Part shown: positions 10,708 through 49,285 of the stretch, piece by piece
Position numbering within the stretch: the stretch's first letter is position 1
Layout of the letters: each line of letters starts with the position of its first letter
Assembly (NCBI GenBank): GCA_007753915.1
Contig: CP036352.1
Location: forward strand, 3,969,306 to 4,033,305
Reading direction: 5' to 3'
Origin: Phycisphaerae bacterium RAS2
GTDB taxonomy: Bacteria; Planctomycetota; Phycisphaerae; UBA1845; UTPLA1
DNA length: 64,000 nt
Translations under genes and position numbers: made by a program
Notes under the pieces: model-generated
The model's input: only the letters and a program-made list of their open reading frames with translations
What the model was told of the DNA's origin: nothing
Databases searched by the model: none

Positions 10708-11538
10708 TCACTCCTGCATGGGCATTCGCGCGAAGAACACCGCGCTCCACACGTTCCCGGCGGCTGCCGCAGCCAGTTTCGCGGTCTCGGCGGCGGCTAC
10801 GCCATCGGTCATCGCCAGCGCCGCAAGTTGCGAGGGTTCGTAGAACACACGCTGCCGGACTTCCACGTCGACCAGCCCGGCGGCACGCAGGCCGGCAACG
10901 TATGAGGCCTCGCTGATGGCTCCGGCAATACAACTCGCGTGAAGATCCGCGTTATGGCGAACTTCGTCCGGCAGGTCGGACGCCACGACATCCGACACGC
11001 GCAGACGCCCGCCGGGCCGCAGGACGCGGGCGATCTCGGCGAAGACCCGCTCCTTTTCAGGTGACAGATTAATGACGCAATTGGAGATCACCCAGTCGAC
11101 CGAGCCATCCGCCACCGGCATCTGCTCGATGATGCCCTTGCGGACTTCGATGTTCGTCAGGCCCGCCGCAGCGATGTTGGCCCGTGCCCGCTCGATCATC
11201 GCGTCGGTCATGTCCACGCCGATGACGCGCCCACTCGGCCCCACCTTCTGCGCTGCGATCAGCAGGTCGATGCCCGCGCCGCTGCCCAGATCGAGCACAA
11301 CCTCGCCCGGTCTCACTTCGGCAAACGCAAGCGGATTGCCGCAGCCGAAGGAATTGGCCACCGCATCGGCCGGCAGCCCCGCAAGGATTTCGTCCTGGTA
11401 GCCGGCGCTCTTTGCGAGCACACCCTTCGACGAGCCGCCGCAACAGGTCGACGTCCCGCAACACCCGCCGCCGGGCTGGGTGACGGCCTTCTCATACTGT
11501 CGCGACACCATTTCACGGACTGCCTGGTTGCTGCTCAT
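10708..11538 (-). CDS. arsM: arsenite S-adenosylmethionine methyltransferase
   Basis: A 276-residue class I SAM methyltransferase that methylates As(III) in the cytoplasm. The start is the ATG at 11538, which overlaps the arsR stop (ATGA) and has GGGAGA upstream; the frame extends to 11580 only within arsR. A Cys-rich N-terminal element (GGGCCGTSTCCGG) precedes the SAM-binding LDLGSGAGIDLLIAA. The catalytic cysteines expected for ArsM are seen in ISNCVINL and HASCIAGA, with the intervening RVSDVVASDLP typical of the family. It is the second gene of arsR-arsM-acr3. Confidence 0.94.
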   Translation of the reverse strand: MSSNQAVREMVSRQYEKAVTQPGGGCCGTSTCCGGSSKGVLAKSAGYQDEILAGLPADAVANSFGCGNPLAFAEVRPGEVVLDLGSGAGIDLLIAAQKVGPSGRVIGVDMTDAMIERARANIAAAGLTNIEVRKGIIEQMPVADGSVDWVISNCVINLSPEKERVFAEIARVLRPGGRLRVSDVVASDLPDEVRHNADLHASCIAGAISEASYVAGLRAAGLVDVEVRQRVFYEPSQLAALAMTDGVAAAETAKLAAAAAGNVWSAVFFARMPMQE

Positions 11539-11918
11539 GGAAGGTTCTCCCTGGGTTGGCACGTCGCGGGCGGGCAGCACTGTTCAATGGCTGCCGCCAG
11601 CCCGCGCAACGTGTTCACCACGATTTCGCAGTTCACCGAGTAATAGACCTGCTTCCCCCGACGCTGCGCGACCAATACGCCCGCTTCGCGCAACAACGCC
11701 AGATGACGCGACACGACCGATACGTCGACCGGGCAGCAGGCGGCCAGCTCGCCGACCGTGCAGGGCCGGCGACATTGCGCCAGGCGACAGAGGATGGCCA
11801 CGCGGTTGGCGTCGCCAAAGGCCTTGAAGAACCGCGGCTCGATCAGCGTATCAATCGTCGGGCAGCAGGCTCGGCGGCGGGCGGCGGGTTTGCGCTTTCT
11901 TTTGCTCATTTGCGTCAT
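11535..11918 (-). CDS. arsR: ArsR/SmtB-family arsenic-responsive repressor
   Basis: A 127-residue winged-helix repressor from the ATG at 11918; ATG 11921 is adjacent and ATG 11909 is also possible. The frame runs on to 12026 but crosses a near-consensus promoter, so the longer form is unlikely. The DNA-binding part is CTVGELAACCPVDVSVVSRHLALLREAG, in two adjacent pieces around residues 60-90. Cysteine pairs occur at RRACCP near the N-terminus, in ELAACCP in the recognition region, and in QCCPPATC at the C-terminus, any of which could bind As(III). It heads the operon and overlaps arsM by 4 bp. Confidence 0.92.
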   Translation of the reverse strand: MTQMSKRKRKPAARRRACCPTIDTLIEPRFFKAFGDANRVAILCRLAQCRRPCTVGELAACCPVDVSVVSRHLALLREAGVLVAQRRGKQVYYSVNCEIVVNTLRGLAAAIEQCCPPATCQPRENLP

Positions 11919-11927
11919 CATGCAAAT
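11908..11927. promoter_or_regulatory. candidate ArsR operator, inverted repeat ATTTGC-N8-GCAAAT
   Basis: Perfect 6-bp arms at 11908-11913 and 11922-11927 with an 8-nt spacer. The repeat covers the arsR start codons and part of the -10 hexamer, a position suited to autorepression. Assignment to ArsR is inference. Confidence 0.5.
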
Positions 11928-11953
11928 ATAGAGCGCACCCACGGCCCGGTCAA
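11925..11953 (-). promoter_or_regulatory. ars operon promoter TTGACC-N17-TATATT
   Basis: On the minus strand the -35 TTGACC is 11953-11948 and the -10 TATATT is 11930-11925, with exactly 17 nt between. The predicted transcription start falls at or beside the ATG at 11918, implying a leaderless or nearly leaderless arsR message. Confidence 0.75.
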
Positions 11954-12090
11954 GTGAGTTTTCTCCAGGATCGATCCAACCGGGGTCCTCTCTGGTTGAA
12001 CCGTTGCCTTGCCTCTTATCTGCCAACGGGTTACAACTACCCGCCCGCGCTCACGGATCGTCCGCGACGCGATGTGAACGGTCGAGCACC

Positions 12091-13468: not shown

Positions 13469-14686
13469 TCAGACCGGCGAACGCTTCAGGTTCGGTTTGC
13501 GGCAGCTTCGGCGCATGGCGAGGATGCCCACGGGGATCGCCAGCAACGGCATCAAACCGCCGAATCCGCAGAAGGGAAACAAAGTGGCAAGTAGCGAGGG
13601 CGGCCGGACCTTTTCCGCGATAGTCAGGTCGACCGTATTGCCGCCGCCATAACCGCGAAGCGACATCTTTCCGTCCGATCGCGTATCCAGAAAATGAAAC
13701 TGCGCCTGCTCCACGCCGTCGTCCGGGTCATTAATCCAAACGCCGCACTGCGATCCAAAATTGATCGCACCGACGACCGTCACCCAATGGCCGCCGCCGC
13801 CGGTCCATAGAACCGACAATTCCACGTCTGCGCCTTCGGCAAGCGCCTTCTTGATGTTGTCGCCGCTGGGAAGGGAACCCGGCCCACCGCCGATCGTCGT
13901 CGTATCGATGGGCAGCCCGAGTTCATTGACGAGCGCTTGCTTGCCTGCAAGGAAATTCTCATCGCTCGTGCCCGAATTCGGATCCGTCATCATGTGACCG
14001 GCGTCTTTCAACGTGTCGCGTAAGCCCGCCGTGGTCATGTTGGTCGTCACGGAGTCGTGCTCGTTGTCGAGCCAAGTCAGGCTGTTGGCCACCGACGTCG
14101 GGCCGCACTCGTTGGGGCCTTGCGCGAGATCGGGGACGCCCTTGTGATACGTCACATCAATCGGCGGAAGCGGAGGAGGAGGAGGCGCCGTGAACTGCAG
14201 CGGAAAAGACGGTGCTGCACCCGGGTCCGCAAAGCTGCCATACCCGTCGCGGCATGATCCGCCGTTGGTCAGGTAGTTGACGGGTTGTCCGATGAGGTGA
14301 ATCACGGCCTGATCTGCGACAAAAGGCGGCGCTTCGATGGCATAATCTTTAAGAAACGTCGTGTGATAGGTCTCCCCGGTCAAAAAGACCGACGCAGGAA
14401 TCACGGTGGCGATCCTGGAGAGTCCGGGCTCGTAGCCGACCGGCAGATTCTGAACGACCCATGTGCCGTCGTTGCGAACGACATTCAGGAAGAAATGACT
14501 CTGCGACTCGCCGGAACTCTGAAACTCGGCTGAGTACTCAACGAGATCGGACGGAATCAACGCCGAAGTCCAAACCACCGGCCGAAAGCTTTCATTCGAT
14601 TGGGCCGCCGCCGTCGCCGGCAAGGACATAACGATGGCAACGAGCGCCATGCAGATCGTGCCAATTCGAGTTTTGTCATTGGTCAT
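13469..14686 (-). CDS. secreted C39-like cysteine peptidase-fold protein with C-terminal PFCG/TM tail
   Basis: A 405-residue exported protein from the ATG at 14686, which has GGGAG upstream; the frame to 14776 is spurious. A signal peptide covers about residues 1-29 and ends near TAAAQS. A Pro-rich linker (PPPPPLPP) precedes a papain-like C39 domain: QGPNECGPTS carries the candidate catalytic Cys, GGHWVTVVGA the His, and WINDPDDG the Asp. Substrate unknown. The C-terminus is LFPFCGFGG, then a hydrophobic stretch and a basic end (MRRSCRK), the layout of a cell-surface sorting tail. A very similar tail ends the protein at 48185-49285. Confidence 0.8.
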   Translation of the reverse strand: MTNDKTRIGTICMALVAIVMSLPATAAAQSNESFRPVVWTSALIPSDLVEYSAEFQSSGESQSHFFLNVVRNDGTWVVQNLPVGYEPGLSRIATVIPASVFLTGETYHTTFLKDYAIEAPPFVADQAVIHLIGQPVNYLTNGGSCRDGYGSFADPGAAPSFPLQFTAPPPPPLPPIDVTYHKGVPDLAQGPNECGPTSVANSLTWLDNEHDSVTTNMTTAGLRDTLKDAGHMMTDPNSGTSDENFLAGKQALVNELGLPIDTTTIGGGPGSLPSGDNIKKALAEGADVELSVLWTGGGGHWVTVVGAINFGSQCGVWINDPDDGVEQAQFHFLDTRSDGKMSLRGYGGGNTVDLTIAEKVRPPSLLATLFPFCGFGGLMPLLAIPVGILAMRRSCRKPNLKRSPV

Positions 14687-14966
14687 TATGATTCTCCCGA
14701 GTTGTAATTGGAGCATCTCCTGTTGTACTTCGACCCCAGCGCAGGTGCAAGAGCGTGGCCCATGCGGCCGACGCACGGCACAGGTGAGAGCTCGGCAACG
14801 TGGGAAGGCCGAAACGACGCACCATGTCTGTCGTTTGACGCACCGTTCATTCTACAACGCGACGTTCTGCCATGCCCCGGCGAGGCAAGGGGCTGTAGCC
14901 ACGGGTGAAGCGATGTGATACTCGCGGATTCGTCGATCTTCCCAATCCACTCCCCGCCCCTCACGT

Positions 14967-48184: not shown

Positions 48185-49285
48185 TCACACTCTGCCTCGG
48201 CGAACACGCCGCAACCGAACCGTGCGAACAAACGGCGCCATCATGACCAGCGCCGCCAGTCCGGCCGACTCGATTCCCAGCAGCCCGCAGAATGGCAACG
48301 CCGGGAACGGCGACGAACCGTTCATGTAACTCGCGCCGGTCGTATCCACCTGCTGCGACACGGCATTGGCCAGCGCCCGGCCGCGCGAGTCGCTCTTGAC
48401 GCGCTCGAACACGACTCCGATGGCGTCCTGCGGCACGCCGAACGTCGACGACGCGCCGACGCCGCCGGGCTTCGTGATGACCTGCGACTGCACCGCGAGG
48501 TCCAGATCGAACTCCTCGTTCAGCGCGATGTCGTACTCGTACGGAAGACTCAAACCCGTGAACAGAATCGCCTTCGCCAGGCTCACGTTCGTATCGGGGT
48601 TGGTGAAATCAACGATTGGAAAATTCACGTTGGCCAGCGCTCCCGCCTGGCGAACAATCGACACCGTGCCATTTGGCCCGCCAGCCAGTGCGACATCGCC
48701 CGAGATCAGCGTCACGGCGCGCTGATCGGCCCGCCGCTGGCTCACGCTGAACGTCAGGTTCACTTCGACCCCGCTCAAGTCCGTCCCTTGGCGCAGCGAC
48801 GCAATCAACATCACGCCGGTTAGCAGCACGTTGCTGCGCACGCGCGACGGCGGCCCGCCCTCGCCGACGCCGCCGACATCCGCCGCCGTGACGCGCACGC
48901 GGCGCGTTTCATTCACAATGCCTTCGATGCGCCAGCCGGTGACGTCGTCATCGGAGAAGGCGCTCAAATCCAGCCCGGCGTCATTCGGCGTCTGACCGCC
49001 GGAAAAAACCGGCATGTCCAGCAGGCTGATGGCCTGCGCCGCGGCGCTCGTCGTGCCGTCGGAATGAAGGCGGTCGAGACTCGATCGCGCGGCGATCGGT
49101 GGGGCAGACTGCGTCTGCGGAACGGCCTCACGCGCGAAATCCGTCTGAATCGGAAGCGGCCCCATGAACTGCAGGATGGACGATTGCGCGCTGCCGGTCA
49201 CGCCCAAGACTTCCGCGCGAACCGCCGGCGCAACCAGCGCGCACCCCAGCGCAGCCGATAATACTCCCCGAACCATTCGAGACAT
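48185..49285 (-). CDS. secreted protein with C-terminal PFCG/TM/Arg tail
   Basis: A 366-residue exported protein. The signal peptide is residues 1-24 (MSRMVRGVLSAALGCALVAP, then AVRA). The body is beta-rich with no recognised motif; it includes low-complexity Ser/Ala and Thr runs. The C-terminus ends in LPFCGLLG, a hydrophobic segment (AGLAALVMMAPFV) and an Arg-rich end (RTVRLRRVRRGR), which closely parallels the tail of the C39-like protein at 13469-14686. That suggests cleavage or anchoring by a sorting enzyme. Function unknown. Confidence 0.75.
   Translation of the reverse strand: MSRMVRGVLSAALGCALVAPAVRAEVLGVTGSAQSSILQFMGPLPIQTDFAREAVPQTQSAPPIAARSSLDRLHSDGTTSAAAQAISLLDMPVFSGGQTPNDAGLDLSAFSDDDVTGWRIEGIVNETRRVRVTAADVGGVGEGGPPSRVRSNVLLTGVMLIASLRQGTDLSGVEVNLTFSVSQRRADQRAVTLISGDVALAGGPNGTVSIVRQAGALANVNFPIVDFTNPDTNVSLAKAILFTGLSLPYEYDIALNEEFDLDLAVQSQVITKPGGVGASSTFGVPQDAIGVVFERVKSDSRGRALANAVSQQVDTTGASYMNGSSPFPALPFCGLLGIESAGLAALVMMAPFVRTVRLRRVRRGRV

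Follow-up and report, generated by a model that had tools for sequence, protein, structure and literature searches.

Two proteins encoded in the window (the whole 64,000-nucleotide stretch of DNA analysed here) end in a tail that we regard, with a probability of roughly 0.6, as a C-terminal sorting signal of Planctomycetota with an invariant cysteine, at which its carriers would be lipidated and then cleaved within the membrane in the manner of MYXO-CTERM. The signal has three parts: a Cys, nearly always within a Cys-Gly (C-G-x-x-G, after which x-E or Met/Pro-Leu often comes); a transmembrane helix; and an Arg-rich end. We observed this tripartite anatomy, with its conserved Cys-Gly, spread over unrelated exported proteins, and we observed homology between tails of unrelated proteins within one genome. 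The occurrence of the Cys-Gly tail on many unrelated exported proteins of relatives makes it very probable that the tail serves as an address for the cell surface; it resembles the myxobacterial one without being identical to it.

To our knowledge, the placement of proteins on the unusual planctomycete envelope is poorly understood. With a recognisable tail, a set of surface proteins could be picked out in many uncultured genomes; the tail would also add a further phylum to the recently described Cys-type signals and would give a well-defined search for a partner protease and a lipidating enzyme. We found no description of such a tail in planctomycetes in the open-licence literature; PMC12078418 mentions CTERM in its reference list only.

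The two window tails and the PFCG pattern

The features of the two genes are as follows, in window coordinates.

13469..14686, minus strand: gene P0001, exported, C39-peptidase-like (translation; start ATG at 14686 preferred over GTG at 14776, ORF 13469-14776)
14603..14686, minus strand: putative signal peptide of P0001, MTNDKTRIGTICMALVAIVMSLPATAAA (read from the translation, plus hydropathy rule)
13565..13576, minus strand: PFCG of P0001, Cys codon 13568-13570 (sequence read)
13514..13564, minus strand: hydrophobic helix of P0001, FGGLMPLLAIPVGILAM (sequence read)
13472..13513, minus strand: basic end of P0001, RRSCRKPNLKRSPV (sequence read)
48185..49285, minus strand: gene P0002, exported, beta-rich, member of an order-wide family (translation, homologues, AlphaFold)
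49214..49285, minus strand: putative signal peptide of P0002, MSRMVRGVLSAALGCALVAPAVRA (by eye from the translation)
48284..48295, minus strand: PFCG of P0002, Cys codon 48287-48289 (C333) (sequence read; homologue alignment)
48227..48283, minus strand: hydrophobic helix of P0002, LLGIESAGLAALVMMAPFV (sequence read; helix 335-364 in the AlphaFold model)
48188..48226, minus strand: basic end of P0002, RTVRLRRVRRGRV (sequence read)

P0001 ends in LFPFCG, FGGLMPLLAIPVGILAM and RRSCRKPNLKRSPV (whole ending LFPFCGFGGLMPLLAIPVGILAMRRSCRKPNLKRSPV), and P0002 in LPFCG, LLGIESAGLAALVMMAPFV and RTVRLRRVRRGRV (whole ending LPFCGLLGIESAGLAALVMMAPFVRTVRLRRVRRGRV); both tails, read from the minus strand, are a Cys-Gly followed by a hydrophobic helix and an Arg-rich end. 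The sequence-only reading had described a PFCG-helix-basic tail common to two unrelated exported proteins, each with a signal peptide and each with a single Cys in its tail. The bodies are indeed unrelated (best BLAST E 1.6), and a signal-peptide-like start was recognised in P0001 by the hydropathy rule and by eye and in P0002 by eye only. The P0001 tail holds a second Cys, in its basic end, and the "C39-like" label given to that protein rests on a match to Pfam PF13529 of 16.7 bits, under the cut-off of 24.

Both tails are real, and the likeness between them, taken alone, is within chance once composition classes are kept: their Smith-Waterman score of 34 was attained in 74 of 2000 plain shuffles and in 387 of 2000 that preserve composition classes. 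The PFCG DNA pattern occurs at 33 places in the 4.32-Mb genome, all of which we read, and only at P0001 and P0002 is it followed, at the close of a plausible gene, by a hydrophobic helix and a basic end; an 82-codon frame near 4219483 ends in PFCG and a hydrophobic stretch without the basic end. A control pattern (PFCG read backwards) occurs at 54 places, implying that the PFCG pattern itself is not enriched. Because "PF" varies among homologues of P0002 and the match between the two tails falls within shuffles, we rejected PFCG as the core of the signal, and the PFCGxxG core proposed earlier reduces to CGxxG.

Each window tail separately, and the wider class of tails, exceeds chance. For P0001 the evidence comes from the same genome, where its tail resembles that of a beta-propeller protein (L224) at 13 of 33 identical positions, a score that none of 2000 plain shuffles and one of 2000 class-preserving shuffles attained, and the bodies of the two proteins show no similarity (best E 2.8). 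In addition, a model whose training set contained neither P0001 nor any of the P0002 family placed P0001 first of 403 C termini from a genome sample plus the window (9.0 bits, 0 of 1000 shuffles), with a modest E of 0.079. The view that the two window tails resemble each other by coincidence, with no signal behind them, draws on the class-preserving shuffles of the pair; it is contradicted by the family data given below and by the independent links of each tail to other tails, and we consider it highly improbable. A full-length homologue of P0001 was found in none of 100 relatives, four of which gave weak partial matches. Elsewhere in the window (10708-12026), a methyltransferase-like protein whose start is rich in Cys lies beside an ArsR-like regulator and resembles, by eye, an arsenic gene pair.

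Conservation and spread of the tail

Homologues of P0002 occur in 72 of 101 genomes, its own genome counted. Among the 50 family tails that we read of the 72 found (P0002 among them), the Cys is present in all 50, as CG in 47 and as CP in 3, and CGxxGxE was counted by eye in 41. In a full-length alignment of 20 members, picked from 30 loci with the two CP members then known left out, only 10 columns are invariant, C333 and G334 among them, and conservation at G337 is 90% or more; the stretch preceding C333 varies in length and sequence, so that C-G-x-x-G is kept and the "PF" is not. The AlphaFold model of P0002 (mean pLDDT 83.7) predicts a beta-rich body, with strands between residues 25 and 282, and places the Cys within a low-confidence linker before the helix at 335-364. 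Foldseek listed lectins (E down to 1.2e-4), which we took as no real match given TM-scores of at most 0.27 and rmsd values above 10 among the 50 matches listed. The tail model also matched strongly (E 3.1e-7) at G010:C5:227943-228038, where the open frame is just 50 amino acids long; this is perhaps a broken second copy of the family.

The tail is not confined to the two window proteins: many unrelated proteins, mostly with signal peptides, end alike. A model of 27 P0002-family tails, searched in 41 genomes, had many matches beyond the family itself. We fetched 40 of these, picked mostly for cover of the Cys region and an open frame rather than at random: 21 were Cys tails ending an ORF, on nonhomologous proteins, and the remainder were internal, noncoding, PEP-CTERM or fragments; likewise, five of the seven nonfamily loci among 30 returned by the same search were Cys tails. 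A strongly hydrophobic start was found in 27 of 33 tail-bearing proteins by a hydropathy rule that picks whichever start maximises hydrophobicity, and six had no clear signal peptide. The bodies of 20 scanned carriers included thrombospondin type 3 repeats (two, one below cut-off), beta-propellers (three), NHL, IgGFc-binding, caspase, DUF3466, DUF2330 (two), subtilase, fn3, CBM96, GSDH and bacterial Ig-like domains, and four had no Pfam domain. The earlier proposal of a sorting-signal layout is supported, with an invariant Cys and with tails on unrelated proteins, mostly with signal peptides, both in the order and in one family of another class.

DUF2330 proteins in two genomes (L119 in G016 and L122 in G014) bear the Cys-Gly tail, and DUF2330 proteins elsewhere bear other sorting tails. 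All three beta-propeller proteins that we read appear to combine the Cys tail with an N-terminal lipobox, identified by eye as SAGAAC in L224/L372 (this genome, 3303 to 3305 kb), GLGC in L105 (G008:C21) and LAGC in L118 (G012:C69); these proteins possibly have two lipid anchors.

Within this genome, lossy searches found at least five Cys tails: P0001, P0002, L111 (455316), L225 (2785935) and L224 (3305196). Two of the ten possible tail pairs are clearly homologous, namely P0001-L224 and L111-L225. The latter pair joins a thrombospondin type 3 repeat protein to an NHL protein with an unrelated body, and its tails are identical at 21 of 36 positions, a score that none of the 2000 plain and none of the 2000 class-preserving shuffles attained. 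For the other eight pairs, P0001-P0002 included, between 87 and 940 of 2000 class-preserving shuffles scored as high. An evenly spaced 400-kb sample of this genome yielded no accepted Cys tail and three PEP-CTERM tails, and 400 kb of a relative (G014) yielded seven PEP-CTERM tails and two Cys tails, the latter found by the pattern rule alone. With no Cys tail accepted in the 400-kb sample and five found by the lossy searches, the signal is sparse in this genome, and the dozens of carriers per genome that had been anticipated did not materialise.

Could the tail be a plain, uncleaved C-terminal membrane anchor, in which a preference for helix capping or packing accounts for the Cys-Gly? Anchoring needs no more than a helix and a basic end, and the scan of CPBP, rhomboid and exosortase proteins described below identified no processing enzyme in this genome. 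Such an anchor, however, would need neither a Cys that is invariant across the order in every family tail read nor closely similar tails on unrelated proteins such as L111 and L225, and we consider it quite unlikely.

Beyond the class, tails of the CGxx(G)xE type occur in four genomes of a family in another class of the same phylum (f86), where we read 5, 4, 2 and 1 of them; many sit behind Gly/Ser-rich linkers. A different Cys tail, comprising a Cys, a Gly-rich stretch, a helix and RRR, was seen in four genomes of another planctomycete family (f36; L237-L240). The phylum search scored no more than 28 candidates in each genome and did not recover P0002, so we do not take its 45 of 294 as a distribution.

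We also compared how models built from one set of tails recognised the other. A model built without the P0002 family recognised 36 of the 50 family tails at no more than 2 of 200 class-preserving shuffles and 44 at no more than 10 of 200, with 2 of 10 PEP-CTERM controls at either level. A family-only model, applied to 29 other tails, recognised 16 at the stricter level and 17 at the looser one, which 12 missed, with 3 and 4 of the 10 controls, respectively. The window tails were not recognised by the opposite models, P0002 scoring -0.5 bits with the model lacking its family and P0001 -0.4 bits with the family-only model. Because most nonfamily tails had been gathered with P0002-derived models, cross-recognition is partly ascertained, and we take this comparison as supportive rather than independent.

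Comparison with known sorting signals

None of the window proteins and tails reached any NCBIfam or Pfam cut-off, and the Pro-Glu-Pro (PEP-CTERM) and LPXTG motifs are absent from both window tails. We scanned 23 mixed, 27 family and 10 phylum-search tails against the models (P0002 counted twice). One of the 27 family tails (L052, from G010) passed the short MYXO-CTERM model TIGR03382 at 17.7 bits (cut-off 15.85), and the best scores with the other MYXO-CTERM model, TIGR03901, were 18.6 and 19.3, under its cut-off of 20. One f86 tail without an LPXTG motif passed the loose LPXTG model TIGR01167 by 0.2 bits (16.1, cut-off 15.9), and the best f86 score with the Synerg-CTERM model TIGR04564 was 21.9, just under 22.5. 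All other scanned tails were under cut-off where scores were shown, tallied members being judged by E-value. The expectation that the tail would not align fully to an existing model therefore held for nearly all tails, L052 being the borderline exception.

The closest known system is MYXO-CTERM with its myxosortase MrtX, of Myxococcota, in which a C-terminal signal on many unrelated signal-peptide proteins likewise consists of an invariant Cys, a transmembrane helix and an Arg-rich end. By experiment, the CPBP protease MrtX cleaves TraA, and conserved cysteines are needed; lipidation is a prediction there, with the lipidating enzyme still unidentified, and the motif is of the GCGC type (PMC11980579). 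By anatomy the planctomycete tails would belong to this class, having the Cys in the motif, the transmembrane helix, the Arg-rich end and a signal-like start in 27 of 33. It is nevertheless rather unlikely that they are MYXO-CTERM itself, already known and spread to Planctomycetota. The shared anatomy, the near-threshold TIGR03901 scores and the passing score of L052 speak for such a spread; against it, the motif is CGxxG(xE) rather than GCGC (PMC11980579), the host phylum differs, no other tail of the three scanned sets was seen passing a MYXO-CTERM model (tallies judged by E-value), and the six CPBP proteins of this genome miss the myxosortase models.

Other Cys signals besides MYXO-CTERM were reportedly named in a 2024 paper. 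Synerg-CTERM, with its enzyme MrtS (TIGR04564, NF040589), bears a Cys and belongs to another phylum. The f86 tails approach its tail model, and a CPBP of this genome at 4232071 scores 44.7 bits with MrtS; the tail score remains under cut-off, however, and the CPBP score is well short of 130. GlyGly-CTERM, which is linked to rhombosortase, shares a Gly-containing motif, a helix and a basic end with our tails but lacks a Cys in its motif, as described in PMC3237569, which lists one planctomycete among the carriers. PEP-CTERM, linked to exosortase, shares the tripartite layout and coexists in this genome, whereas our tails have Cys-Gly and no PEP motif.

Proposed processing and candidate enzymes

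By analogy to MYXO-CTERM, we infer lipidation, cleavage, a protease class and a final location for the planctomycete carriers. A tail-bearing protein would be exported by Sec, and its C-terminal helix would halt in the inner membrane; with the Arg end on the inner side, the Cys would sit at the outer face. This Cys would be lipidated, and an intramembrane protease, in all likelihood a member of the CPBP (glutamic) family, would cut just after it; the lipid would keep the protein attached while it moved to the outer membrane or surface. More tentatively, at somewhat less than even odds in our judgement, the tails belong to an unnamed Cys-dependent system (CGxxG-CTERM) of at least two Planctomycetota lineages, whose own lipidating and cleaving enzymes would deliver lipid-anchored proteins to the surface alongside PEP-CTERM.

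This genome encodes six CPBP proteins, three rhomboids and one exosortase, none of which scores above the cut-off of a model for enzymes associated with Cys signals. With the myxosortase models (MrtX/MrtC/MrtP), the best CPBP score was 28.7 bits for Mrt_core (cut-off 100); one CPBP (L147) is above the cut-off of TIGR03008 (CAAX protease-related), and one is above that of a transporter-fusion model. The exosortase passes general exosortase models (TIGR02602, 151.7 bits, cut-off 105.55), and together with the three rhomboids it raises the prospect that the tails are a sorting signal processed by one of these enzymes instead of a CPBP protein. The 2 to 4 of 10 PEP-CTERM tails that exceed shuffles with the Cys-tail models speak for this reading, which we nonetheless judge unlikely. 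The Cys tails lack Pro-Glu-Pro, and the exosortase would have its substrates in the PEP-CTERM tails of the same genome; the rhomboids score 25.4 to 36.6 bits with the rhombosortase model (cut-off 84), and the motif of the rhombosortase substrates is without Cys (PMC3237569).

Two CPBP proteins were compared with the tail for co-occurrence. Reciprocal best matches of L147 occur in seven of the eight tail-positive genomes of the order (own included), and not in G010 or in three f86 genomes. L146 (2450587) occurs in a panel in seven of eight tail-positive genomes of the order (own included), in none of three genomes of family f2, and in none of five from other families of the class among the matches fetched. 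These panel counts cover 53 of 58 matches, five weak ones from class-negative genomes being left out, and a second panel search of 39 matches from which two short ones were left out. Across 101 genomes, L146 was found in 34 at E 1e-6, or 33 after dropping G099 (8.1e-7, partial), and 30 of these 33 have P0002 (read by hand). It is missing from 42 of the 72 P0002-positive genomes, and we rejected it as a universal partner; the dedicated, co-occurring intramembrane protease that had been anticipated was not identified among the CPBP, rhomboid and exosortase proteins of this genome. Among the neighbours of L146, one gene is common to three genomes, an uninformative result. The protein itself (L146/L341, 2450425-2451222 in this genome) is present in all 17 genomes sampled of its family and in 16 others of the order, and its aligned members have an unusual LHAGG motif (LHAAG in one) near the end.
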